Assembly: GCF_013170805.1 (NCBI RefSeq)
Contig: NZ_CP051293.1
Location: 5,214,001-5,278,000 of the forward strand
Source of the DNA: Mesorhizobium sp. NZP2077
GTDB taxonomy: Bacteria > Pseudomonadota > Alphaproteobacteria > Rhizobiales > Rhizobiaceae
Direction of reading: 5' to 3'
DNA: 64,000 nt
Below the pieces are notes generated by a model, which was not told the DNA's origin, searched no databases, and worked only from the letters and a program-made list of their open reading frames with translations. Below are positions 422 through 31,692 of the stretch, piece by piece. The translations under genes were made by a program, and so were the position numbers. How positions within the stretch are numbered: position 1 is the first letter of the stretch; each line of letters opens with the position of its first letter.

Positions 422-2650
422 TCAGCCATTCACACGCCGCGCGTCGCTGACGCTCGAATTGTCCTTGAGCTGCGACAGCAGCCGGTTGAGGTGCTTCAGA
501 TCCCAGACTTCGAGATCGATCAGCATTTCGGTGAAGTCGGGCGCGGTGCGCACCATCGACAGCGTATGGATGTTGGCGTCGTTGGATGCAACGACCTGGG
601 CGATATCGGCAAGCGATCCCGGCGCATTGATGGCGGTGACCGAGACACGCGCGGGAAAGCGTTCCTTGGTGCGTTCGTCAATATCCCAGCGCACGTCGAT
701 CCAGCGCTCGGGCTGGTCGTCGAAGGCCTGCAGCGCCGGCGACTGGATCGGATAGATGGTGATGCCGGTGCCCGGCTGGACGATGCCGACGATGCGGTCG
801 CCCGGCACTGCGCCTTCCGGCGCGAAGCGCACCGGCAGGTCGCCGCGCACGCCACGGATCGGCACGGCACCGTCGCGCGGCTGGTCCTTGTCCTTGCGGG
901 CGGCGCGACCTGGAATCTGGAACAGCATGCCTGCGGCATTGCGGATCTTCGACCAGCCCTCCTCGCGCGGCTTGGGCGCTGCCGACGTGACACGTTCGTC
1001 CTTGTAGTCGGGGAAAACCGCCTTCATGACGTCGGTCGAAGCAAGTTCGCCACGGCCGACGGATGCCAGCACGTCCTCGATGTCCTTGCGCGCCAGCCGG
1101 TGCAGCACCGGCTTTAGGCTTTCCTTGGTAAAAGTCTTGCCGGCCCGTTCGAAGGCACGTTCCAGAATGCGCGCGCCGAGACCCGAATACTGCTTGCGGA
1201 TGGCGTTCTTGGTGGCGCGGCGGATGGCGGCGCGTGCCTTGCCGGTGACGACGACCGATTCCCAAGCCGCCGGCGGCACCTGGGCCTTGGAGCGGATGAT
1301 CTCGACCTCGTCGCCATTTTTCAGTTCCGTCATCAGCGGCATGATGCGGCCATTGACCTTGGCGCCGACGCAGGTGTCGCCGACATCGGTATGCACCGCA
1401 TAGGCGAAGTCGATCGGCGTGGCGCCACGCGGCAAGGCAATCAGCATGCCTTTCGGCGTGAAGCAGAACACCTGGTCCTGGAACAGTTCCAGCTTGGTGT
1501 TTTCGAGGAAATCCTCGGGATTGTCGCCTTCGGCGAGCTGCTCGATGGTGCGCCGCAGCCAGGCATAGGCATTGGTCTCCTTCGAGATCGCATGGCCGGC
1601 GCCATTCGTCTTTCCGCCAGTGTCCTTGTAGATCGAGTGCGCCGCGACGCCGTATTCGGCGATCTTGTTCATCTCGCGGGTGCGGATCTGCAACTCGACG
1701 CGCTGGCGCGAGGGACCAACGATGGTGGTGTGGATCGAGCGGTAGTCGTTCTGCTTCGGCGTCGAGATGTAGTCCTTGAAGCGGCCGGGTACCATCGACC
1801 ACGTGGTGTGGATGGCGCCGAGCGCGCGATAGCAGTCCTCGACGCTGTCGACGACGACACGGAAGCCGAAAATGTCGGACAACTGCTCGAAGGACAGCGC
1901 CTTGGCCTCCATCTTGCGAAACACCGACCAGGGCTTCTTCTGCCGGCTCTTCACGCCGGCGTTGATGGCATGCTTTTCAAACAGCGCCGACAGCGCCTTT
2001 TCAATGTCGGTCAGGACGCCCTTGTTGCGTTCGAATATCTCGGCGAGCCGGGCAGTGACGGCTCGATAGGCCTCCGGATTGATGAAGCGAAAGGCGATCT
2101 CTTCGAGTTCCTCGCGCATGCCTTGCATGCCCATGCGCCCGGCCAGCGGCGCGTAGATGTCCATCGTCTCCTCGGCAATGCGCAGGCGTTTGGCCTCGGG
2201 CATATGGTCGAGGGTTCGCATGTTGTGCAGACGGTCGGCGAGCTTGACCAGCAGCACGCGGACATCTTCCGAGATCGCCAGCAGCAGCTTGCGCAGGTTT
2301 TCCGCCTGCTCGGCCTTCTTCGAGACGAGATCGAGCTTCTTCAGCTTGGTCAGGCCCTCGACCAGCTTGCCCATTTCGGGGCCAAACAGATCGTCGATCT
2401 CGGCCCGCGTCGCCGTGGTGTCCTCGATGGTGTCGTGTAGCAGGGCGACTGCGATCGTCGCCTCGTCCATGTGCATTTCGGTGAGGATGGCCGCGACTTC
2501 GAGCGGATGCGAGAAATACGGGTCGCCCGAAGCGCGCTTCTGGTGACCATGTTTCTGCATGGCATAGACATAGGCCTTGTTGAGCAACGCCTCGTTGACG
2601 TCAGGCTTGTAGCGCTGGACGCGCTCGACAAGCTCATACTGACGCATCAT
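422..2650 (-). CDS. rsh: Bifunctional (p)ppGpp synthetase/hydrolase, RelA/SpoT family
   Basis: Makes and degrades the alarmone (p)ppGpp and so sets the stringent response. The 742-residue product has the full long-RSH architecture: an HD hydrolase domain near residues 45-150 with LHDTIEDT at about 71-78, a synthetase domain around 240-345 containing GRFKDYISTPKQNDYRSIHT, a TGS domain around 390-450 (VFCFTPKGMLIALPRGATP), and a C-terminal ACT domain from about 665. Both catalytic halves look intact, as expected for the single bifunctional Rsh of alphaproteobacteria. Two adjacent ATGs begin the frame. It follows rpoZ on the same strand, an arrangement widely conserved in this class. Confidence 0.95.
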   Translation of the reverse strand: MMRQYELVERVQRYKPDVNEALLNKAYVYAMQKHGHQKRASGDPYFSHPLEVAAILTEMHMDEATIAVALLHDTIEDTTATRAEIDDLFGPEMGKLVEGLTKLKKLDLVSKKAEQAENLRKLLLAISEDVRVLLVKLADRLHNMRTLDHMPEAKRLRIAEETMDIYAPLAGRMGMQGMREELEEIAFRFINPEAYRAVTARLAEIFERNKGVLTDIEKALSALFEKHAINAGVKSRQKKPWSVFRKMEAKALSFEQLSDIFGFRVVVDSVEDCYRALGAIHTTWSMVPGRFKDYISTPKQNDYRSIHTTIVGPSRQRVELQIRTREMNKIAEYGVAAHSIYKDTGGKTNGAGHAISKETNAYAWLRRTIEQLAEGDNPEDFLENTKLELFQDQVFCFTPKGMLIALPRGATPIDFAYAVHTDVGDTCVGAKVNGRIMPLMTELKNGDEVEIIRSKAQVPPAAWESVVVTGKARAAIRRATKNAIRKQYSGLGARILERAFERAGKTFTKESLKPVLHRLARKDIEDVLASVGRGELASTDVMKAVFPDYKDERVTSAAPKPREEGWSKIRNAAGMLFQIPGRAARKDKDQPRDGAVPIRGVRGDLPVRFAPEGAVPGDRIVGIVQPGTGITIYPIQSPALQAFDDQPERWIDVRWDIDERTKERFPARVSVTAINAPGSLADIAQVVASNDANIHTLSMVRTAPDFTEMLIDLEVWDLKHLNRLLSQLKDNSSVSDARRVNG

Positions 2651-2678
2651 GGGCGGAATCTCTCGGCGATGAAATGAA

Positions 2679-2708
2679 ACATGCGCCGCACTGCTGTACG
2701 GCGCATGT
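2679..2708. other. Perfect 10-bp inverted repeat between rpoZ and rsh
   Basis: ACATGCGCCG and CGGCGCATGT pair perfectly around a 10-nt loop in the 127-bp gap between rpoZ and rsh. There is no following T-run on the transcribed (minus) strand, so it is not a classical terminator. It could be an attenuator, a processing site or a protein-binding palindrome. Confidence 0.5.
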
Positions 2709-2777
2709 CATAGATAGCCACGAAACTGCTGATACGGAAGTGCCGGAAACGTATTCCAGGCAGTCCAGAGCCCTCGC

Positions 2778-3179
2778 TTAGTAGTCGTCGCTCTTTTCCG
2801 GCGGCACCAGACCCTCGATGCCGGCCAGCAGGTCCTCCTCGGTCATCCGATCGAACGTGACATTTTCCTCGGCGTCATCAGCGTCGGCGGCCGCAACGGC
2901 GGCGCCGGTCTGGTCGGCGATCACCTCGCCATCGGCTTCGGGCTCGTCGACCTCGACATGCTTCTGCAGCGAATGGATCAGATCTTCCTTGAGATCGTCG
3001 GGCGACAAGGTCTCGTCAGCGATCTCGCGCAAGGCGACGACCGGGTTCTTGTCGTTGTCGCGAGGAACGGTGATCTGCGCGCCCTGGCTGATCTGGCGAG
3101 CACGGTGGCCGGCCAAAAGCACCAGCTCGAAGCGGTTGTCGACCTTGTCGATGCAATCTTCAACGGTTACGCGGGCCAT
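2778..3179 (-). CDS. rpoZ: RNA polymerase omega subunit
   Basis: Smallest core RNA polymerase subunit, which helps fold and assemble beta-prime. The N-terminus [20 protein letters not shown] and the downstream segment ending [11 protein letters not shown] are the omega signature helix region, and [20 protein letters not shown] sequence follows. At 133 residues it has the acidic C-terminal extension usual in alphaproteobacteria (runs of D/E near the end). The ATG at 3177-3179 is the only sensible start. It lies upstream of rsh on the same strand, and the omega/RSH pairing is a conserved neighbourhood. Confidence 0.95.
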
Positions 3180-3505
3180 GGACTGCCCCTTTCATGCCTG
3201 GATTTGATGGAAAACAGGCGCGGTCCATAACCCGAACGCCGCCAAAATACAAGCATCATGCCAAAGTCGGCGCTGCTGGGCACGTAATGCTGCGGCCAAA
3301 CATCCGATTGAGGCACAACGCCGTTGCGTCCATGGCATCGGATGCCTCGATCACAATTGCTTGCGTTGCCTCATCTCGCCTTGGATTGCCGCCAAACTGG
3401 CGTTATCTCGAATGGCGAAGGTCAGCCGGTTTATTATGAGCCTGACCGATAGTCGCTACCGCATTTCGTTTAGACGGCCGTATTTTTCGAAAAGGAATAT
3501 TTTCC
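3180..3505. other. Divergent intergenic region, rpoZ / NYN gene
   Basis: About 325 bp between divergent genes with no coding signal that I trust. It must hold the promoters of both genes. A purine-rich ribosome-binding site (AAAGGAATATTTTCC) lies just before the NYN-domain gene. I see no strong hairpin or repeat. Confidence 0.4.
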
Positions 3506-4087
3506 ATGTTCGACCCTCGTGAAAAAATCGCGCTGTTCATCGACGGCGCCAACCTCTACGCCACGTCGCGGGCGCTCGGCTTCGACATCGACTATCGCAA
3601 GCTGCTGTCGAGCTTCCAGAAGCGCGGCTATCTCCTGCGCGCCTATTATTACACGGCGCTGGTGGAGGATCAGGAATACTCCTCGATCCGCCCGCTGATC
3701 GACTGGCTCGACTATAACGGCTTCAAGGTGGTGACCAAGCCGGCCAAGGAATTCACCGACTCGACCGGCCGCCGCAAGATTAAGGGCAATATGGACATCG
3801 AACTCACCGTCGATGCGCTGGAACTCGCCGATGTCGTCGACCACTATGTCATCTTCTCCGGCGACGGCGACTTCCGCACTCTGGTCGAGGCGCTGCAACG
3901 GCGTGGCCGCAAAGTGTCGATCGTCTCGACCATGGCCTCGCAGCCGCCGATGATTTCCGACGACCTGCGCCGCCAAGCCGACCATTTTATCGACCTGACG
4001 ACGCTGAAGAGCGAAGTCGGCCGCGATCCCTCCGAACGGCCCGTTCGGCGGCCCGAACCGGCCGAAGTCGACGAGGACGACTACTGA
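3506..4087 (+). CDS. NYN domain protein (LabA/DUF88-like, PIN-fold nuclease family)
   Basis: A 193-residue protein of the NYN/LabA family, predicted PIN-like metal-dependent RNases. The conserved acidic positions are visible: FIDGANLY at 11-18 (Asp13), KGNMDIELTVDAL at about 93-105 (Asp97) and IFSGDGDF at 116-123 (Asp120 and Asp122). A short charged, proline-rich tail ends the protein. Its substrate is unknown. It is divergent from rpoZ and 11 bp upstream of a uracil-DNA glycosylase gene, so the two are probably cotranscribed. The family call is firm; the biological role is not established. Confidence 0.88.
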   Translation: MFDPREKIALFIDGANLYATSRALGFDIDYRKLLSSFQKRGYLLRAYYYTALVEDQEYSSIRPLIDWLDYNGFKVVTKPAKEFTDSTGRRKIKGNMDIELTVDALELADVVDHYVIFSGDGDFRTLVEALQRRGRKVSIVSTMASQPPMISDDLRRQADHFIDLTTLKSEVGRDPSERPVRRPEPAEVDEDDY

Positions 4088-4098
4088 GGTCGGTCGCG

Positions 4099-4755
4099 TT
4101 GACCGCTCTTTCCGTTTCCGAGCCGAACCGCGACTGCCCGCTCTGCCCGCGGCTTCATGATTTCATTGCTGAATGGCGACAGCGCGAGCCATCGTGGTTC
4201 AACGCGCCGGTGCCGACTTTTTTGCCGCTCGAGGGCGATGAAGCCGTTCAGCTTTTGATCGTCGGATTGGCGCCCGGCCTGCGCGGCGCCAATCGCACCG
4301 GGCGCCCCTTCACCGGTGACTATGCCGGCGACCTGCTCTACTCGACGCTGATCGCGCACGGCTTTGCGCGCGGTGAGTTCAAGGCGCGGCCCGATGACGG
4401 GCTGGAGCTTGTCGGTACCGCGATCACCAATGCGGTGCGCTGCGTGCCGCCGGAGAACAAGCCGGTCGGCGCCGAAATCTCCACCTGCCGGACATTCCTG
4501 GTGCCGACGATTGCCCGGTTCCCAAACCTGCGCGCCGTGCTGGCACTGGGGTCGATCGCGCACCAGTCGACCGTGCGCGCGCTGGGCGGGCGTGTCGCCG
4601 CCTACCCGTTCAAGCATGGCGGGCAATTGCCGGCCGGCGGCATCACGCTGTTTTCGAGCTACCACTGCTCGCGCTACAACACCAACACCGGCGTCTTGAC
4701 GGAAGCCATGTTCGTCAACGTGTTCAGCGAGATCGCAGCGTTTCTGCGGACATAG
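4099..4755 (+). CDS. Uracil-DNA glycosylase, family 5 (UDGb type)
   Basis: Removes uracil and other deaminated bases from DNA as the first step of base excision repair. The 218-residue product shows the family motif IVGLAPG at 54-60 followed by LRGANRTGRPFTGDYAG. It has four cysteines positioned for a [4Fe-4S] cluster (Cys13 and Cys16 in CPLC, Cys115, Cys130), and SSYHCSRYN near 186-194 in place of the usual HPS loop. The start is TTG at 4099, the only initiator that keeps the N-terminal CPLC motif close to the preceding stop codon. It sits 11 bp after the NYN-domain gene, suggesting an operon. Confidence 0.88.
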   Translation: MTALSVSEPNRDCPLCPRLHDFIAEWRQREPSWFNAPVPTFLPLEGDEAVQLLIVGLAPGLRGANRTGRPFTGDYAGDLLYSTLIAHGFARGEFKARPDDGLELVGTAITNAVRCVPPENKPVGAEISTCRTFLVPTIARFPNLRAVLALGSIAHQSTVRALGGRVAAYPFKHGGQLPAGGITLFSSYHCSRYNTNTGVLTEAMFVNVFSEIAAFLRT

Positions 4756-4778
4756 CGCCGCGCCGTCGTTGTTATCAC

Positions 4779-4849
4779 GCAATTCCCAAGGCAAAGCGCT
4801 ACGCGCTTTTCCCGGGAAAACCGCTTCACACTTTTCCCTAGATTGCTCC
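4779..4849. repeat. Degenerate palindromic intergenic repeat (copy 1)
   Basis: Contains GCGCTACGCGCTTTTCCCGGGAAAACCGCTTCACACTTTTCC-like sequence read in two parts: AGCGCTACGCGCTTTTCCC then GGGAAAACCGCTTCACAC. The AAAACCG-TTC-CACTTTT core recurs at 7384-7433, 48545-48593 and 53107-53176, so I treat it as one degenerate family of intergenic palindromes. The ends here (GCAAT / ATTGC) pair only weakly. Confidence 0.45.
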
Positions 4850-4850
4850 A

Positions 4851-4934
4851 GAACCCCTCCAGCACGATCTTGCCCTTGGCCTTGCCGGTCTCGATTAGCG
4901 CATGGACGCGCTTCAGATTGGCGGCATTGATGGG
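4851..4934 (-). pseudogene. C-terminal remnant of a zinc-type quinone oxidoreductase/alcohol dehydrogenase
   Basis: The reverse strand reads PINAANLKRVHALIETGKAK followed by GKIVLEGF. This matches the C-terminal helix and last strand of MDR-family NADPH:quinone reductases. Nothing upstream on this strand resembles the rest of such an enzyme: GH25 coding sequence starts within about 110 bp. I read it as a gene fossil. The match is short, so confidence is moderate. Confidence 0.5.
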
Positions 4935-23597: not shown

Positions 23598-23939
23598 ATG
23601 TTTCGAAAAGTGAGCCTGGCTCTTGCAGCCACATTGATCATGGCGGGCGCGGCGTGGGCCGATCCGATCGAGGGCAACTGGAAGACGCAAGCCGGCGACA
23701 CCGCCGCCATCTCAGGCAGCGGCTCGTTTTCCATCACGCTCAAATCAGGAAAATATGCCGGCAAGACCATCGGCTCGCTGAAAGCGGCCGGCGACAGCAA
23801 ATATGCCGGCAGCATCACCGATCCGGCGAACGACAAGACCTATTCGGGCAAGGCGACATTGTCGGGCACCTCGCTCAAGATGAGCGGATGCGTGCTCGGC
23901 GGACTGATCTGCAAGAGCCAGACCTGGCATAGACTTTAG
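23598..23939 (+). CDS. DUF2147-like small secreted protein, 3' end rebuilt by an integrated element
   Basis: A 113-residue exported protein: signal peptide MFRKVSLALAATLIMAGAAW (cleavage near AWA-D), then DPIEGNWKTQAGDTAAISGS, the DUF2147 opening, and a cysteine pair in SGCVLGGLICKSQTW. DUF2147 proteins are lipocalin-like beta barrels of unknown role. AAGGGAGC lies before the ATG. The last codons TGG CAT AGA CTT TAG (W-H-R-L) lie at the left junction of the element at 23930-31623. A second W-H-K-L-stop at 31619-31633 is the presumed original ending. Confidence 0.82.
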   Translation: MFRKVSLALAATLIMAGAAWADPIEGNWKTQAGDTAAISGSGSFSITLKSGKYAGKTIGSLKAAGDSKYAGSITDPANDKTYSGKATLSGTSLKMSGCVLGGLICKSQTWHRL

Positions 23940-23956
23940 TTCTGCAGACTGATATC

Positions 23957-23989
23957 GGACGGTCTCCAAGACACCAACGGAGACCGTCC
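23957..23989. promoter_or_regulatory. Perfect 11-bp hairpin directly before the recombinase start
   Basis: GGACGGTCTCC and GGAGACCGTCC pair around an 11-nt loop, ending 4 nt before the recombinase ATG at 23994. This occupies the place of a ribosome-binding site. It may block read-through translation from the target gene, serve as an operator, or be part of the attachment site. Confidence 0.6.
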
Positions 23990-23993
23990 AGTC

Positions 23994-25514
23994 ATGCTAC
24001 AGCCTCGCGACCTCAAGGGACGCCGCGCGATTTCCTATGCTCGCTGGAGTTCTGGCAAGCAGGCGCAGGGCGATAGCTCGGCGAGGCAGACAAAGAATGC
24101 CAAGGCTTTCTGTGCGTCTTTTGGTCTGACCCTCGACAGTGAATTGGTAGACGATGGTGTGAGCGCATTCAAAGGCGCGAACCTTGAAGCCGAACTGGGC
24201 CAGTTCGTCGCGGACGTTCGTTCTGGCAAGATACCACGCGACGTAGTCCTGATCGTTGAGAACATTGACCGTATCACTCGCGTGAAGCCAACGCGGGCTA
24301 TCCGCTATTTCCTCGACCTCTTGGACACTGGGCTAACTCTGGTGACCCTGACGGACCAGCGGGTCCACACGAGCGAGGGCTATGACGACAACTTCTCTAA
24401 CCTGATGATGTCCCTCATGGCCATGCAAGCGGCTCACGAGTACAGCGCAAAACTGTCCTATCGGGTGAGCGAGGCCTGGGGACGTAAAGCGGACAAGGCG
24501 CGGGCGGCTGTCGCAAGCGGTAGCGGGGCAAAGATCAAGGTTGCGAAGGTCCCCTTTTGGATTGACCGCGAGACCAACGAATTGAATGTACGCGCCACCG
24601 ATGCGCGGCTTCTCTTTGAACTCGCTAAGGAAGGACACGGCCAGCAGACCATCACACAGATACTAAACACGCGCGGCATCCCTTCTCCCTCAGGGAACAC
24701 ATGGGCTCAAGCCGTTGTTGGTGAAGTCCTCCGCTCCCCAGCCGCCTATGGGTGCCTTGTGCTCAAGGGCGAGGAAGTCCCCGGCTATTTCCCGGCGCTG
24801 CTTAGCGAGACCGAATGGCTCGCCACCCGACAGCGCACCAAGGCCCGGCAGCACAGCAGACAGGTAGGCCGCACATCAAACCTGTTCTCCCGCATGGTCC
24901 ACTGTAGCCACTGCGGCTCTCCGATGGTCCTCACGTCTTCCAAGAAGGGCGGCATGTCATGGGGCTATTTCACATGCACGGGGAAGACGTTCAAGCGTAC
25001 GGAATGCACCGCGCCCAACTGGCGCTATGACCAATTCGAGCGGGAGTTGATTGACCGTATTGGGTTCCTGGCCGTTCCTGTACCGCAGGACCAGACGGCC
25101 CCCGATCTCACAAGGCAACTTGAGGAAACCATAGGTGCCCTTGAGGCCAAGCAATCCAACGTCCTTGCCGGTATCGCCGAGGCAGAAACCGCCGATGTCC
25201 GCAAGGTCCTCTTGGGCAAGGCCGATGAACTAGCCCGCCAGATCGAGGCGAAGCGGCGGGAGATCAGGGCTATCCGCGAGAATGACGCGAGGTTCCGTGA
25301 GAGCGCGGCGGCTGTCGACGACTTCGAGATGGATCAGGAAGAGATCAGGCGGCTGGCCAAGGAGGACCGGAAGGGAGCTCAAGGGCTGATCTCCAACCTC
25401 GTGAAGCGCATCGATCTTGAGAGCGACAGCAAGACTCTCAGGCGGGCGGTTGTCACCATGCGAAGCGGCTACAGCCACGCGCTTGTCTTCGACAGCACCG
25501 GCGAGCCGGGCTGA
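23994..25514 (+). CDS. Large serine recombinase (resolvase/recombinase-domain integrase)
   Basis: A 506-residue site-specific recombinase. The N-terminal resolvase domain has the nucleophile region AISYARWSSGKQAQGDSSAR (serine near 18-19) and VVLIVENIDRITRVKPTRAI. The recombinase domain follows (ITQILNTRGIPSPSGNTWAQ, AVVGEVLRSPAAYG). A zinc ribbon then appears (CSHCGSPMVL, with later cysteines in YFTCTGKTF and RTECTAPNW), and a coiled coil spans about 370-450 (LEETIGALEAKQSNVLAGIA). This architecture belongs to phage and ICE integrases that use short attachment cores. It is the only recombination gene at the left boundary of the element. Confidence 0.93.
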   Translation: MLQPRDLKGRRAISYARWSSGKQAQGDSSARQTKNAKAFCASFGLTLDSELVDDGVSAFKGANLEAELGQFVADVRSGKIPRDVVLIVENIDRITRVKPTRAIRYFLDLLDTGLTLVTLTDQRVHTSEGYDDNFSNLMMSLMAMQAAHEYSAKLSYRVSEAWGRKADKARAAVASGSGAKIKVAKVPFWIDRETNELNVRATDARLLFELAKEGHGQQTITQILNTRGIPSPSGNTWAQAVVGEVLRSPAAYGCLVLKGEEVPGYFPALLSETEWLATRQRTKARQHSRQVGRTSNLFSRMVHCSHCGSPMVLTSSKKGGMSWGYFTCTGKTFKRTECTAPNWRYDQFERELIDRIGFLAVPVPQDQTAPDLTRQLEETIGALEAKQSNVLAGIAEAETADVRKVLLGKADELARQIEAKRREIRAIRENDARFRESAAAVDDFEMDQEEIRRLAKEDRKGAQGLISNLVKRIDLESDSKTLRRAVVTMRSGYSHALVFDSTGEPG

Positions 25515-25590
25515 TTAGGTACCCATACAGAGGAGCGACGCGCTTGCTGCCTCGTGGCAACGCATATCCGCAACATGCTGATATTGCCCG

Positions 25591-25657
25591 CTCATATTGA
25601 GTGATAGACCACGAGAATTAGCGGCTGCTGAATAGGTACTCATATTGAGGGATAGAA
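25591..25657. repeat. Two direct repeats CTCATATTGAG(T/G)GATAGA
   Basis: CTCATATTGAGTGATAGA at 25591-25608 and CTCATATTGAGGGATAGA at 25639-25656 differ at one position and are spaced 48 bp apart. A partial third resemblance (CATAATGATAGACGG) lies near 25684. The CTCA-TATT-GAG core is nearly palindromic. They lie in the 445-bp gap between the recombinase and HTH-protein genes and could be binding sites for the latter. Confidence 0.55.
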
Positions 25658-25959
25658 CGCCCTCTATGACGATTACCCACCCATAATGATAGACGGACGA
25701 AGTTCCTCGCCACTTCGCCCCCATTTTGTTCCCCGCTCGTCGCCAAGGGCACCACGCCCCCACAACCAAGACCTGATGCCTGACTGGTTCACCCGCCGCT
25801 ATTCGGTCGATGAAACTGAGGCCCTTCGGGACGGCAACGCCGCCCGACCCCAGAGCGTGGCCTGAGACGCGTCAAGCCCTGGCCACTCCCTATACTGCCA
25901 ACCTCAGCCAATCGACTCCCAACATGCCCCTAAGGCCCGAAGAAAGGCATTCCATCGCC

Positions 25960-26484
25960 ATGAGTTTGCACCAGACCACCATCACCGCAGCCACTGTTAC
26001 GACGAGGCGTCAGAGAGCCAACGCCGACAATGCCGCACTTGCCACCACCGCCAAGCGCGACCAGTCCGACTTCAACCACAAGGCTGTCAAAGTCCTGACC
26101 GCCAAGGGCTTCAGACGCTCTACCATCGCGGCGACCTTAGAGTTATCCGAGAGGAGCGTCAGGCGCTATCAATCGACCCAGTGTCTCGCTTGGGACGCAG
26201 AGCGGGCCGTGGAGTTGCGGCGAATTTCCATTGCAGCCACCCTGGGCACGGTTCGCTTCCAGTCAGACGATGATGTTGAATGGGAAGATATGATGCTCGG
26301 TGCCCGTGGGGACACGCGGGCCTCCGTCTTCGACGCGCTGAAAGAGGGTCTATCGCAAGCCGACATTGCCAGACTGCTGGGAATATCACTGCCCGCCGTC
26401 TCACGGCACGTTAAGGAAATCGCCCGGAGAAGGCTGGCCAAATCCCAAGCCGAAAAATTCAATGAAAATCACCTAACCTATTGA
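25960..26484 (+). CDS. Protein with two helix-turn-helix motifs (element regulator?)
   Basis: About 174 residues from the ATG at 25960; an upstream in-frame ATG at 25810 would add 50 residues of low-complexity sequence. Two HTH-like segments are visible: KGFRRSTIAATLELSERSVR near the middle, and GLSQADIARLLGISLPAVSR near the C-terminus, the latter a clear recognition-helix pattern. The protein is basic at its end. I do not recognise a family. Its position after the recombinase suggests a regulator or excision factor for the element. Confidence 0.65.
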   Translation: MSLHQTTITAATVTTRRQRANADNAALATTAKRDQSDFNHKAVKVLTAKGFRRSTIAATLELSERSVRRYQSTQCLAWDAERAVELRRISIAATLGTVRFQSDDDVEWEDMMLGARGDTRASVFDALKEGLSQADIARLLGISLPAVSRHVKEIARRRLAKSQAEKFNENHLTY

Positions 26485-26853
26485 CATTAATAGGCATCCC
26501 TCGTTAACGCAGCTCCCTTAGGGAAACTCAAGCTGTCCTACTGGCGGCATATGTCGGCAAGCCCATAGCTGAGACGGCTTCGCCGTTCATGGGACAACCG
26601 ACGGCGCTGCCAGCTTCGCTTGGCGAGAGACCAGATTGATGGTCATTATTGATGATCATTTCTCTTGTCTCACCTCAGCCACAGCTTCAGGACCGTCAGG
26701 ACCCTCTATCGGTACGGGCGAAGCCCGTCTCTGCGATAGCCTACCTGACGATAACCTGAAGTTGGCTCACGGGCTCGCTTTACGTCCCGCGTCCTTTCCC
26801 CCACCTTTTTTATCCCTGGCTGGGCAGCACCACGACGGCGACGCCGGACGCAC
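26485..26853. other. Non-coding stretch inside the element
   Basis: About 370 bp between the HTH-protein gene and a convergent small ORF. I find no ORF with coding character. A short hairpin-like run GACGGCTTCGCCGTTC occurs near 26571 and a direct GATGGTCATTATTGATGATC pattern near 26637. It may contain terminators or a decayed gene. Confidence 0.3.
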
Positions 26854-27108
26854 TCACGCCAGACCTTTGGTCAGCCCAGCCCGCTTCCTGAGAATGTGAA
26901 AAGCTCTCAGAATTATCAGGTCATTCTCCCGCTCGGACTCCTCCACCCGCTCTTCGTACGAAGCTTCCTCGGCGTGAAAATCTTCCGCCCTTGAGGGCAT
27001 ATTTTTCCACCCCCATTGACATGCATCCCAGTAGCTCTCGCAGGGGATGGTGCGCTCCGCAACAACCCGGCCTCTGCTATCAAAAAACACGATCTTGAAG
27101 TGTGTCAT
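26854..27108 (-). CDS. Small acidic hypothetical protein
   Basis: An 84-residue ORF from the ATG at 27106-27108 (MTHFKIVFFDSRGRVVAERT), with SYWDACQWGWKNMPSRAEDF and a charged helix EERVEESERENDLIILRAFH. The balanced composition, and a start beginning with a strand-like FKIVFFDSRG, make it more plausible than a random frame. GGAG lies 12 nt before the ATG. It is divergent from hsdM. No family is recognised; small proteins beside methyltransferase genes are sometimes antirestriction or regulatory, but nothing here proves that. Confidence 0.45.
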   Translation of the reverse strand: MTHFKIVFFDSRGRVVAERTIPCESYWDACQWGWKNMPSRAEDFHAEEASYEERVEESERENDLIILRAFHILRKRAGLTKGLA

Positions 27109-27304
27109 CCTGTCGGCTCCCATCATTGGCATTATTGCCGACAGCCGATGTTTCACACATTTGAACAGGAAAAAAGAGCGACTACCATAGCCTCGCCGAT
27201 AACGCAGAAAACAACCGCCTTGCTTGAAAGTCGGTGCATTTCCGTTGCCATTGCCCAGTCTGTCCGCTTTAGTCTGCGCGAAATGGATTTGGGGGGTACC
27301 ACAG

Positions 27305-28996
27305 TTGAACCAGCAGGCATTGTCGGCATTCATCTGGTCCGTGGCTGATCTCCTCAGGGGCGACTACAAACAGGCCGACTACGGCAAGGTCATCCTTCCC
27401 TTCACCGTGCTGCGGCGTCTCGACTGTGTGCTGGAGCCGACCAAGGACGCTGTGCTCGCCGAACATGCGGCCAAGACCGCGCAGGGGATGAACCCGGAGC
27501 CATTCCTCCTGCGCAAGGCCAGGCAGACTTTCTACAACACGTCAAAGCTCGACATGCGCAAGCTGATGGGCGATCAGGACAACATTGCCCAGAACCTTTT
27601 CGCCTACATCCAGGCCTTCTCGCCGGATGTGCGCGACGTCTTCGAGCGGTTTGAGTTCGCGGTACAGGTGGACCGTCTCGCCAAGACCGGGCTGCTCTAT
27701 CAGGTCACCGAGAAATTCGCCCACATCGACCTACACCCGAGCAAGGTCGACAATCACCAGATGGGCCTCATCTTCGAGGAACTCATCCGCAAGTTCGCCG
27801 AACTATCCAACGAAACCGCCGGTGAACATTTCACGCCGCGAGAAGTCATCCGGCTGATGGTCAACCTTTTGTTCGTAGAGGACGACGCCATCTTGTCGAA
27901 ACCCGGCGTGGTGCGCACGATCTACGATCCGACCGCTGGCACGGGCGGGATGCTGTCAGTTGCCGGTGAGCATCTGGTCGAGCACAACGATAAGGCCTCG
28001 CTGGTCATGTACGGGCAGGAGTTGAACCCGGAGTCCTATGCCATCTGCAAAGCGGACATGCTCATCAAAGGGCAGGATGTCGCAAACATCGTCTTCGGCA
28101 ACACCCTCGCCGACGATGGCCAGCCGCATGAAAAATTCGACTACATGCTGTCCAATCCGCCTTTTGGCGTCGAGTGGAAGAAAGTAGAGAAGGCCGTTCG
28201 CACCGAACATGAGAGCCAGGGGTTCAACGGCAGGTTCGGCCCCGGGTTGCCCCGGGTTTCCGATGGATCGCTTTTGTTCCTCATGCACCTTCTGTCAAAG
28301 ATGCGACCGGCGGTCGATGGCGGCAGCCGCTTCGGCATCGTGCTGAACGGCTCGCCCCTGTTCACCGGCGCGGCTGGCAGCGGCGAGAGCGAGATCCGGC
28401 GCTACGTGCTGGAGAACGATCTGGTCGAGGCCATCGTCGCCCTGCCCACCGACATGTTTTACAACACCGGCATTTCAACTTATGTCTGGGTGCTGTCGAA
28501 CCGCAAGCCAATGCACCGTAAGGGCAAGTTACAGCTCATCGACGCATCGAGTTTCTGGCGCAAGATGCGCAAGACCCTCGGCTCCAAGCGCAAGGAAATG
28601 GGCGATGACGACATCGCCACCGTCACCAGACTGTTCGGCGGCTTCCACGAGGCCAGACTCGCAAGCGTGCTGGACGCCAATGGCAAGGAGATAGCGCGGC
28701 AGGTGCTTCTGGAGGGCGAACAGCCCCCGGCGACTCCACAGGGTGGCAAGGTCAGGCTCGCGCCTCTTTCACTGATCTTCTCAAACGAGGAATTCGGCTA
28801 TCGCACTATAACGATCGAGCGCCCGTTACGTGACATTAGGGGGCAGATCGTGCTTGGCGAGCGCGGCAAGGCCAAGGGCAAGCCTCAGGCGGACAGCGCC
28901 CTCAGGGACACCGAGAACGTGCCTCTGGGTGAGGATGTCGAGCTCTATTTCCGGCGCGAGGTTATGCCTCATGCCGAGGGTGCATGGATCTGTTGA
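27305..28996 (+). CDS. hsdM: Type I restriction-modification methyltransferase subunit, truncated by IS21
   Basis: N6-adenine DNA methyltransferase. From a TTG at 27305 (after GGGGG) it reads [20 protein letters not shown], the HsdM N-terminal helical domain. The SAM-binding motif I follows as [20 protein letters not shown], and motif IV as [13 protein letters not shown] (NPPF). [15 protein letters not shown] is the conserved linker. The protein stops after about 563 residues at AWIC, and the stop codon lies inside the left inverted repeat of the IS at 28991, so the natural C-terminus is lost. No hsdS or hsdR gene remains in the element. Confidence 0.85.
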
Positions 28997-29045
28997 TTTC
29001 CACTGAGAAGTGACCCGGCATTTCCACCGAGAAGTGACCCGCCTG

Positions 29046-29858
29046 TCATGTATGTTTCGGTTCGGGGTTTACGGTCAAGGTTCTGGCTTTCTCCTTCGCT
29101 TTTTTGGGCTCGTGTGCGGAGCTGTTTTTGAATCGGAAGCTATCGTTTCCGGTTTCCAGGATGTGGCAATGATGGGTCAGCCGGTCGAGTAGCGCGGTTG
29201 TCATCTTGGCATCGCCGAAGACGCTGGCCCATTCGCTGAAGCTGAGGTTGGTGGTGATAATGACGCTTGTGCGTTCGTATAGCTTGCTCAGCAGATGGAA
29301 GAGCAATGCTCCACCTGATGCACTGAACGGCAGATAGCCAAGTTCGTCCAGGACGACGAGATCAGAATGGACGAGGCGATTGGCGATCTGGCCGGACCTT
29401 CCCTGTGCCTTCTCCTGTTCCAGCGCATTGACCAACTCGACAGTCGAGAAGAAGCGAACCCGTTTGTGATGATGCTCGATGGCCTGCACGCCGAGAGCGG
29501 TCGCAATATGGGTTTTGCCTGTTCCAGGGCCGCCGACGAGCACGATGTTGTTGGCTTCGTCGACGAACTCGCAACGATGAAGTTGCCGCACCAGTGCCTC
29601 GTTTACCTCGCTGCTGGCGAAGTCAAAGCCGTTGAGATCACGATAGGCTGGAAAGCGAGCTATCTTGAGCTGATAGGCTGTCGACCTGACCTCGCGTTCT
29701 GCCGTCTCGGCCTTCAGCAGTTGCGACAGGATGGGAATGGCGGCTTCAAACGCCGGCGCTCCCTGTTCGGTGAGTTCGCCTACAGCTTGCGCCATACCGT
29801 GCATCTTCAGGCTCCTGAGCATGATGACGATTGCGCCACTGGCAGGATTATGACGCAT
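29046..29858 (-). CDS. istB: IS21 helper ATPase IstB
   Basis: A 270-residue AAA+ ATPase that assembles with IstA and directs target choice in IS21 transposition. Walker A is [17 protein letters not shown], followed by [20 protein letters not shown] and Walker [38 protein letters not shown] is the typical C-terminal block. Its start overlaps the end of istA by 11 bp, the usual IS21 arrangement. Frame and length are intact. Confidence 0.95.
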
Positions 29859-31386
29859 GGCGCACCTCCAAGGCCTTTCTCAAAGCATCGTAGCGTTCGA
29901 CATTGGCCTTCGGCTCGTTGGTAAGCGTCAAAGCCTGAGGAGCGTCGATGGTGGGGGGTGTGAGGGATTTGCCATCGACCAGGCGATGAAGCAGATTCAG
30001 CACATGGGTCTTGGTGGGAACACCGCCCTGCAATGCCATCTCCACGGCGGAGAGCACCGCCTGCTCGTCGTGCTGAAGGACAAGTGCCAGGATGTCGACC
30101 ATCTCGCGATCGCCGCCGGGCTTCTTGAGCAAATGCTGCTGCAAAGATCTGAATGCATCGGGAAGTTCGGCAAAAGGTGCTCCGTTGCGAAGGGCGCCTG
30201 GTTTGCGCTGAACAACAGCCAGATAGTGCCGCCAGTCATAGACCGTCTGTCCTGGCCGATCATGTGAGCGATCGATGATGCGGCGATGCTCACAGATGAT
30301 CAAACCTTCCGCGGCAACCACGACACGATCTGGATAGACCCGCAGGCTCACGGGCCGGTTGGCAAAGGACGCCGGCACGCTGTAGCGGTTGCGCTCCAGA
30401 TGTATAAGGCAGGTCGGAGACACCCGCTTGGTGTATTCGACAAACCCATCGAAGGACCGTGATGTCGGCATCAGAGACTGGACTTCTTCGGTCCAGACGT
30501 CATTGATGGTCCCCCTCATTCGCCCATGTGGCGTCTGCTGCCACAACACCCTGCAACGCTGCTCAAGCCAGTCGTTCAGGGCATCCAGCGAGGGAAAGCG
30601 TGGAATGGGCTGCCAAAGCCGGTGACGTGCGTCCTGAACATTCTTCTCGACTTGTCCTTTCTCCCAACCCGATGCGGGATTGCAGAACTCGGGTTCGAAC
30701 AGATAGTGGCTGGCCATTGCCATGAAGCGGACATTGACGTCGCGCTCCTTGCCTCGTCCGACCCTGTCGACCGCCGTCTTCATGTTGTCGTAGATGCCGC
30801 GCCGGGGAATGCCGCCAAACACACGGAAAGCGTGATTGTGCGCGTCAAACAGCATCTCGTGCGTCTGCAGCAGGTAAGCCCGAACAATGAAGGCACGGCT
30901 GTAGCTCAGCTTCGTATGGGCCACCTGCAGCTTGGTGCGCTCATTGCCGATGATTGCCCAGTCTTCGGACCAATCGAACTGGAACGCTTCGCCGGGCTCA
31001 AACACCAAGGGAATGAAGGTCCCACGGCCGGATGTCTGCAACTCCCTTTGCCGATCAGCTCTCCAATCCCGGGCAAAGGCCGCCACCCGATTGTATGAGC
31101 CCTCATAGCCAAGGCTGATCAGATCAGCGTGCAGCTGCTTGACGGTTCGCTTCTGCTTGCGAGACCTGTTGGCTTCTGTCTTCAGCCAGGCAGACAATCG
31201 GTCGGCAAAGGCATCGAGCTTGCTCGGCCGGACCGGCACCTTGAACTTCGGCTCGACGCCATCAGAACGCAGATATCTGCGAATGGTATTCCGCGACAGG
31301 CCGGTCCTGCGGCTGATCTCACGGATCGATAATTGCTCTCGAAAATGCCAGCGTCGGATCACGCTCAATAACGCCATGTCGATCAC
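29848..31386 (-). CDS. istA: IS21 transposase IstA
   Basis: A 512-residue DDE transposase. The N-terminal HTH reads [20 protein letters not shown]. The RNase H-like catalytic core begins at [14 protein letters not shown] (first Asp), with [14 protein letters not shown] supplying the second, and the glutamate lies downstream near [12 protein letters not shown]. The C-terminal domain includes [20 protein letters not shown]. The gene is complete, and istB follows with an 11-bp overlap. The element may be active. Confidence 0.95.
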
Positions 31387-31618
31387 TCCATAACCCCCGC
31401 TGAGACAGCAAGGGGTGGTTCAAACATGGGTCAATTCTCGATGGAAATATCCTCCAATGCCGGGTCACTTCTCAGTGGAAATCAACAGGATGCACACCTC
31501 GCGGCCTACGTAGGGCATTTGTCCCTGTAAGGGATGGCTGCAAGACCCCCTCCGGTGCCTCAGAAATCCCATGTTCGAGCTATGCGTCCAACACATTCCG
31601 TAAAATAAAAGCTAAATC

Positions 31619-31633
31619 TGGCACAAGCTCTGA
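31619..31633 (+). pseudogene. Displaced original last codons of the DUF2147 gene
   Basis: TGG CAC AAG CTC TGA encodes W-H-K-L-stop, matching W-H-R-L-stop at the intact gene's end (23925-23939) but with different codons. It directly follows the shared core CTGGCA and precedes a strong terminator by about 30 bp. I read it as the attR-side remnant of the target gene. The match is only four residues, and is supported mainly by its context. Confidence 0.6.
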
Positions 31634-31663
31634 TCGACCCTACCTCATCCTTCTGACATGATG

Positions 31664-31692
31664 ACGGGGCCTGGCGGGCCCCGTTTTCGTTT
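31664..31692 (+). terminator. Rho-independent terminator
   Basis: ACGGGGCC / GGCCCCGT stem with a TGGCG loop, followed by TTTTCGTTT. It lies 30 bp after the displaced DUF2147 stop codon, so it is probably that gene's original terminator, now separated from it by the 7.7-kb element. Confidence 0.85.

Follow-up and report, generated by a model that had tools for sequence, protein, structure and literature searches.

Recoded codons that restore the end of a protein gene are known from e14 and phage 21, tyrosine-integrase elements at icd, and SCC elements carry restriction-modification cargo. SCC inserts in the terminal nucleotides of orfX, which remains functional, with the codons for ESYHK or EAYHK repeated at each junction (PMC4723332), and SCCmec excision at orfX has also been reported (PMC13296057). 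The targets of large serine recombinases (LSRs) were described as enriched in competence genes (PMC10083194), and Acinetobacter comM loci interrupted by elements with CBASS have been described (PMC11472951). For Mesorhizobium, integration sites named in a genus survey include tRNA genes, guaA, radC and dusA (PMC8627217). Literature searches for DUF2147 with integration or recombinase returned no relevant title.

In this study, a locus was analyzed at which an LSR element was predicted, from the sequence alone, to lie in the last codons of a DUF2147 gene and to rebuild the end of that gene. Such 3′-end regeneration is known for some integrases, and SCC at orfX provides the serine-recombinase precedent (PMC4723332). 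In the searches made, no paper treating DUF2147 as an integration target was found, in line with the novelty suggested for it.

Two junctions at the 3′ end of the DUF2147 gene

The window, that is, the whole 64,000-nt stretch analyzed, is a part of contig C1 of a two-contig, 7.69 Mb genome of a Mesorhizobium-type soil bacterium, and the element is an island of mobile DNA within it. DUF2147 was assigned by Pfam in 23598–23936 (PF09917, E 6e-14). The left junction (23924–23939) reads CTGGCATAGACTTTAG with the codons TGG CAT AGA CTT TAG at 23925–23939, and the right junction (31618–31633) reads CTGGCACAAGCTCTGA with TGG CAC AAG CTC TGA at 31619–31633, both exactly where the original prediction had placed them. 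The terminator predicted directly after the right junction is also there, as a G+C-rich hairpin with a T-run, ACGGGGCC-TGGC-GGGCCCCGTTTT. Between the two CTGGCA sites lies the LSR element, with the integrase starting 54 bp 3′ of the DUF2147 end (Table 1).

Table 1. Features of the DUF2147 locus in the window and the evidence for each.
Feature	Position	Strand	Basis
DUF2147 target gene	23598..23939	+	PF09917; left junction followed by H-R-L-stop codons of the element; relatives W-H-K-L
attL, left core CTGGCA	23924..23929	.	CTGG is the common part of all eight complete pairs
Element P′ half-site, putative source of replacement codons and stop	23928..23949	+	Nine left ends compared; limits approximate
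Promoter-like TAGACT-17-TATCGG	23930..23958	+	Putative; spacing read, start point assumed
Predicted leader hairpin, 3′ arm with integrase Shine-Dalgarno GGAG (23979–23982)	23957..23989	+	Fold prediction
Large serine recombinase, 506 aa	23994..25514	+	PF07508, PF13408; 75–88% identity to six others
Helix-turn-helix protein	25810..26484	+	HTH_23 among several HTH models
Small orphan protein, 89 aa from inner ATG	26857..27123	-	Common to several related elements
hsdM, cut at insertion sequence	27305..28996	+	HsdM_N, N6_Mtase, Type I methyltransferase; tool's frame from 27224
IS21-family insertion sequence	28991..31487	-	IstB_IS21; istB 29046–29858, istA-like 29848–31386
Remaining right end of element, 130 bp	31488..31617	.	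Match to other right ends
attR, right core CTGGCA	31618..31623	.	Junction sequence read
Native tail (rest of H-K-L-stop), displaced, with native terminator (31664–31687)	31624..31687	+	Sequence; empty sites

DUF2147 was found in 145 of the 146 genus genomes (one genome had no match), and the right flank likewise in 145 of 146. Among the 145 gene ends gathered, 132 were parsed by an anchor pattern; the 13 unparsed ends comprise six that look like ordinary W-H/T-K-L (G023, G108, G117, G003, G069, G020), one W-T-K-R (G086), four diverged ones (G006, G112, G070, G013), and those of G114 and G085. The gene end carries no element in 123 of the 132 parsed loci, while the other nine hold an element or a remnant. 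Native ends (n = 123) fall into eight kinds, with 107 W-H-K-L, 7 W-T-K-L, 4 W-H-R-L and 5 others; the uninterrupted W-H-K-L ends of relatives read CACAAGCTCTGA and run into the terminator region, and a terminator-like hairpin starting within 110 nt of the gene end was found at 101 of the 123 empty loci, in which G134 and G115 were included despite extra DNA further downstream. Uninterrupted relatives ending in W-H-K-L and then a terminator had been anticipated, and these counts agree with that. Neither a native CAT AGA CTT TAG running on into the sequence from 23940 nor an absent right junction, the two outcomes that would contradict an insertion, was seen; the right junction is common to other elements.

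The integrase search matched 30 of the 146 genomes at E ≤ 1e-10, and seven of them encode a full-length integrase: the window's, 131-2-1 (G147), G146, Mesorhizobium sp. M7A.T.Ca.US.000.02.2.1 (G014), M7A.F.Ca.US.008.03.1.1 (G030), the MAG N.Ca.IN.013.02.1 (G130) and CA8 (G154). The six others are 75–88% identical to the window copy and the remaining matches 58% or less; in 7/7 genomes the integrase starts 51–55 bp 3′ of the DUF2147 stop. The two remnants are 1.07 kb (G009) and about 1.2 kb (G160, right junction lost). Measured from CTGG to CTGG, the elements span 7,694 bp in the window, 12,762 in G014, 13,173 in G146, 13,607 in G030, 13,813 in G154 and 18,704 in G147, the G130 element being split over two contigs. 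The right end of the window element matched five other loci at 91–96% over 60–67 bp (≤44 bp of element and up to 23 bp of flank), G014 at 79% over 150 bp and G134 at 86% over 44 bp, with no match to G154 at E 1e-4.

Eight junction pairs were compared, including that of G130 with its ends on different contigs and omitting G160. As G147, G154 and G130 have CTGGAC on the left but CTGGCA on the right, the core shared by the eight pairs is CTGG only; the six-base core originally proposed is therefore present at both window ends but is not general. Although a six-base match by itself would be weak evidence, the junction stands above chance, because the left junction falls at the same codon in nine genomes and 123 of 132 loci are without an element.

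Two further loci were observed. In G134 (L083, G134:C98:12700-18200, about 600–4860), an intact W-H-K-L end with its terminator is followed about 4.2 kb further by a right-junction-like site, a second native tail and a terminator, perhaps a relic or a stacked insertion. In L084 (G156:C1:523500-527500; match C1:524415-524999), a sequence 58% identical to integrase residues 1–202 lies far from the DUF2147 of that genome.

Comparison of the genomes shows that sites without an element exist, that the junctions recur, and that a single integrase clade occupies this site with varying cargo; defined attL and attR sites and an empty attB, as expected of an LSR integrative element, are all present. The locus very probably holds a site-specific LSR integrative element in the DUF2147 3′ end that supplies a replacement tail, in line with the insertion by a serine recombinase first suggested. 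The recombination reaction itself we infer from the junctions: the LSR would join attP to an attB made of the last codons of the DUF2147 gene, and exchange within CTGG would replace the native H-K-L-stop with the H-R-L-stop of the P′ half-site, leaving the gene with as many codons as before. Its native tail and terminator would be moved to the far end, to be restored on excision. A joined attP was found in none of the viral contigs, plasmids or 146 genomes searched, nor was an excised junction.

A predicted hairpin over the integrase ribosome-binding site

Integration separates DUF2147 from its native terminator, and by the same test as applied to the empty loci, a terminator-like hairpin within 110 nt was found at 0/9 left ends. 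A hairpin covering the integrase ribosome-binding site (RBS) was predicted in 12/12 leaders, eight from the DUF2147 site (G160 outside the set) and those of the outgroup integrases L090–L093, with energies lower than those of shuffled sequences by 2.0 to 5.1 standard deviations (least for G014 and L091). Among the eight leaders, some rows change both partners of pairs 7, 8 and 9 (G-C to C-G, C-G to G-C and G-C to A-U), while pairs 6–8 are broken in G130, pair 10 fails in three rows and pair 11 in two. Pairs were counted by position, as MAFFT misplaced some hairpin arms, and one extra G009 pair was removed by hand.

The RBS was predicted to be closed on read-through RNA in 12/12 leaders. On RNA from an assumed own start (7 nt after the -10-like hexamer, which lies 17 nt from TAGAC/TTGAC), the unpaired share was 0.36–0.57 in nine leaders, 0.18 in G154, 0.04 in L092 and 0.02 in L093; the -35-like hexamer of G009 is only AAACTT. 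The proposal is that the hairpin hides the integrase RBS on transcripts reading in from DUF2147, and that the integrase's own promoter starts a transcript inside the hairpin. We regard this combined lock and promoter as an evenly balanced proposition; a literature search on hairpins against read-through found no relevant paper.

Somewhat less probably than not, the leader inverted repeat is instead a DNA operator of a repressor or a stabilizer of the DUF2147 mRNA 3′-end. Symmetric changes are also expected in a dimer binding site, and the element encodes helix-turn-helix proteins; however, the RBS lies in the 3′ arm of 12/12 leaders, and in several rows G-U replaces G-C, a change that an RNA stem tolerates and a DNA palindrome does not; both points count against these alternatives.

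Replacement codons and the half-sites of distant relatives

After TGG, the left ends read CATAGACTTTAA/G in four cases (H-R-L), ACTAGACAGTAA in two (T-R-Q), ACTAGACTTTAA in one (T-R-L) and CACAAACTTTAA in both remnants (H-K-L). The native codon number after the tryptophan is kept in 9/9 left ends with the pattern W-[HT]-[KR]-[LQ], so the DUF2147 protein stays full length because the element brings its own replacement codons. The synonymous replacements of the original prediction need one correction, in that one of the codon changes, K to R, is conservative rather than synonymous.

The window integrase carries Recombinase (PF07508) and Zn_ribbon_recom (PF13408) domains in 23994–25511 (Pfam) and has the ~500-aa size of an LSR. 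The catalytic Resolvase domain (PF00239) was not reported for it by Pfam, even at E 10, and was reported for the G147 and G154 integrases; R17, S19, S20, R93 and R96, which we take to be the catalytic residues, are invariant in the seven aligned integrases. The PDB match of the window integrase is A118 integrase, a weak one (E 0.0094). Integrase matches in plasmids and phages were all under 60% identity, and no relatives were found in viral contigs.

A contig scan for integrase relatives gave 38 loci. Three outgroup integrases lie inside dprA: L090 (M. sediminum, 62%), L091 (M. microcysteis, 60%) and L093 (Rhizobium MAG, 41%), each preceded by a dprA frame with DprA_N and DNA_processg_A up to position 110 of the 212 in the domain model. 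The downstream dprA part was absent from the 10-kb flanks and was located by genome search. For L090 and L091 it shares a contig with the integrase, whose start is about 12.5 and 13.5 kb away, respectively, and it lies behind an A+T-rich end resembling the DUF2147-element ends; for L093 it is on another contig. A fourth, L092 (51%), lies in a short frame whose end was read by eye as N-D-V-P, presumably an M19 dipeptidase. More distant relatives (about 30%) lie in what is probably comM, judged by ChlI and Mg_chelatase domains in the three proteins tested; dprA and this probable comM are both competence genes. In the midpoint-rooted tree, the seven DUF2147-site integrases form a clade (96/100), which L090 and L091 adjoin (82/89). 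Concerning the crossover dinucleotide, comparison gave CTGG as common to the DUF2147 pairs and CC to both complete dprA pairs.

L090–L093 all have TTGACG as half-site (4/4), with a TGA that terminates the frame they interrupt; if set after the tryptophan codon of DUF2147, the outgroup half-sites would stop after one residue. At the DUF2147 left ends the half-site reads TAGAC (arginine) in 7/9, the frame continuing to the native-position stop, and CAAAC in both remnants (G009 and G160). Since the half-site stop of the dprA relatives ends the gene, the DUF2147 half-site looks recoded to complete a new target, a direction of change that we infer. That the half-site has been under selection to keep its target intact is the probable reading.

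It is unlikely that the element is as described and the codon fit accidental, DUF2147 tolerating varied short tails and the half-site never having been selected. The nine related ends amount to few independent cases, the native ends themselves vary (8 kinds in 123), the Q of the T-R-Q ends is absent from all 123 of them, and the native length is kept by 6.1% of random 12-mers with like composition. Nevertheless, only 1.0% keep the length with K/R in second place and 0.1% with L in third as well, odds that are only a guide because the nine ends are related; and the outgroup half-sites would stop after one residue, yet 0/9 DUF2147 ends do.

Cargo and reduced state of the window copy

The 7.7-kb insert was confirmed as an element but not as an intact one: hsdM ends at the insertion sequence (IS), relatives carry hsdS and hsdR beyond it, and the five complete relatives are 12.8–18.7 kb long, so the window copy is reduced. 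It is best described as a derivative that lacks the distal genes and has an IS21-family copy in hsdM. Three full-length IS copies, the window's included, are 100% identical in the genome, so the event looks recent; no target duplication was seen at the IS edges, which would fit an IS-linked deletion. That the whole interval came from IS activity or homologous exchange, with the serine recombinase as a passenger, is very improbable, for although the three identical IS copies and the mixed G134 locus, in which about 4.2 kb separates a native gene end from a right-junction-like site, can be cited in its favor, the left junction recurs at one and the same codon, in seven genomes next to an integrase of this clade, and the same IS was not seen among the relatives' frames listed.

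Intact 611-aa hsdM frames are present in G147, G146 and G014; hsdM, hsdS and hsdR were found in G147 and G146, and by homology in G014. In G154 the element encodes a cyclase of CBASS type (SMODS, AGS_C) together with a 2TM (SLATT_4) effector. No anti-phage defence family was found among the few proteins scanned in G030 (three) and G130 (one), so that 5/7 elements have a recognized defence gene, the window's being the cut hsdM. Six homologues of the small orphan at 26857–27123 were found in the protein database (E ≤ 0.001); that it is a directionality factor would be a guess. Orphan backbone proteins are common to G030, G154, G130 and L090–L092. Among the proteins scanned, a subset of the frames, no relaxase, conjugation or transfer gene was recognized; no clear structural PHROG for virion genes was found, a T7_gp14 match in one L077 frame being sub-threshold (E 0.039).

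Orphans of ~245 and 257 aa without Pfam match occur in L076, L077, L079 and L090–L092, whose targets differ, and their named homologues are mostly from Mesorhizobium. The modelled 257-aa orphan (mean pLDDT 79.0) had no PDB match at E ≤ 0.001; the other four structure models reached mean pLDDT 49.7–61.6. An Hsp70-like protein (PF00012) is encoded in the largest related element, G147 (L073:13061-15601, minus strand).

Discussion

Tentatively, this lineage may have shifted from a truncating half-site, as in dprA, to a C-terminal cassette that completes DUF2147, with a hairpin silencing the integrase on the read-through that insertion creates. If so, a single attachment site would combine three functions, in recombinase binding, protein coding and gene control. 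The truncating and completing half-sites provide a comparative series for the cost of integration to the host gene, and the DUF2147 elements offer, besides a benign landing site, a clade of integrases whose att sites can be read.

Compared with e14 and phage 21 at icd, the elements share a recoded 3′ end but differ in recombinase chemistry. With the Mesorhizobium ICEs and IMEs they share the genus and the integrative habit; conjugation or relaxase genes, which those carry, were not recognized here among the proteins scanned. The competence-gene elements are closer, L090, L091 and L093 in integrase family and right-end resemblance and L090 and L091 also in orphan backbone proteins, whereas L090, L091 and L093 interrupt dprA, where the half-site TGA ends the frame at once.

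Similar to SCC and SCCmec, a serine recombinase uses the terminal codons of a protein gene, with variants, and leaves the gene whole. Identity with SCC was rejected, as the target is DUF2147 and not orfX/rlmH, the host belongs to another phylum and the core is shorter. Unlike SCC with its Ccr proteins and 15-bp repeats, the DUF2147 element has a single LSR, an unrelated target, a shared core of 4–6 bp, putative attP-supplied codons that differ from the native ones, and a leader hairpin. An LSR clade at DUF2147 was not found described. The SCC-like lifestyle, with a serine recombinase, a benign 3′-end site and defence cargo, would thereby extend to Alphaproteobacteria and an unrelated target; an ordinary class of enzyme follows a strategy with a precedent in SCC, and these elements stand out by their conserved leader hairpin and apparently recoded half-site.
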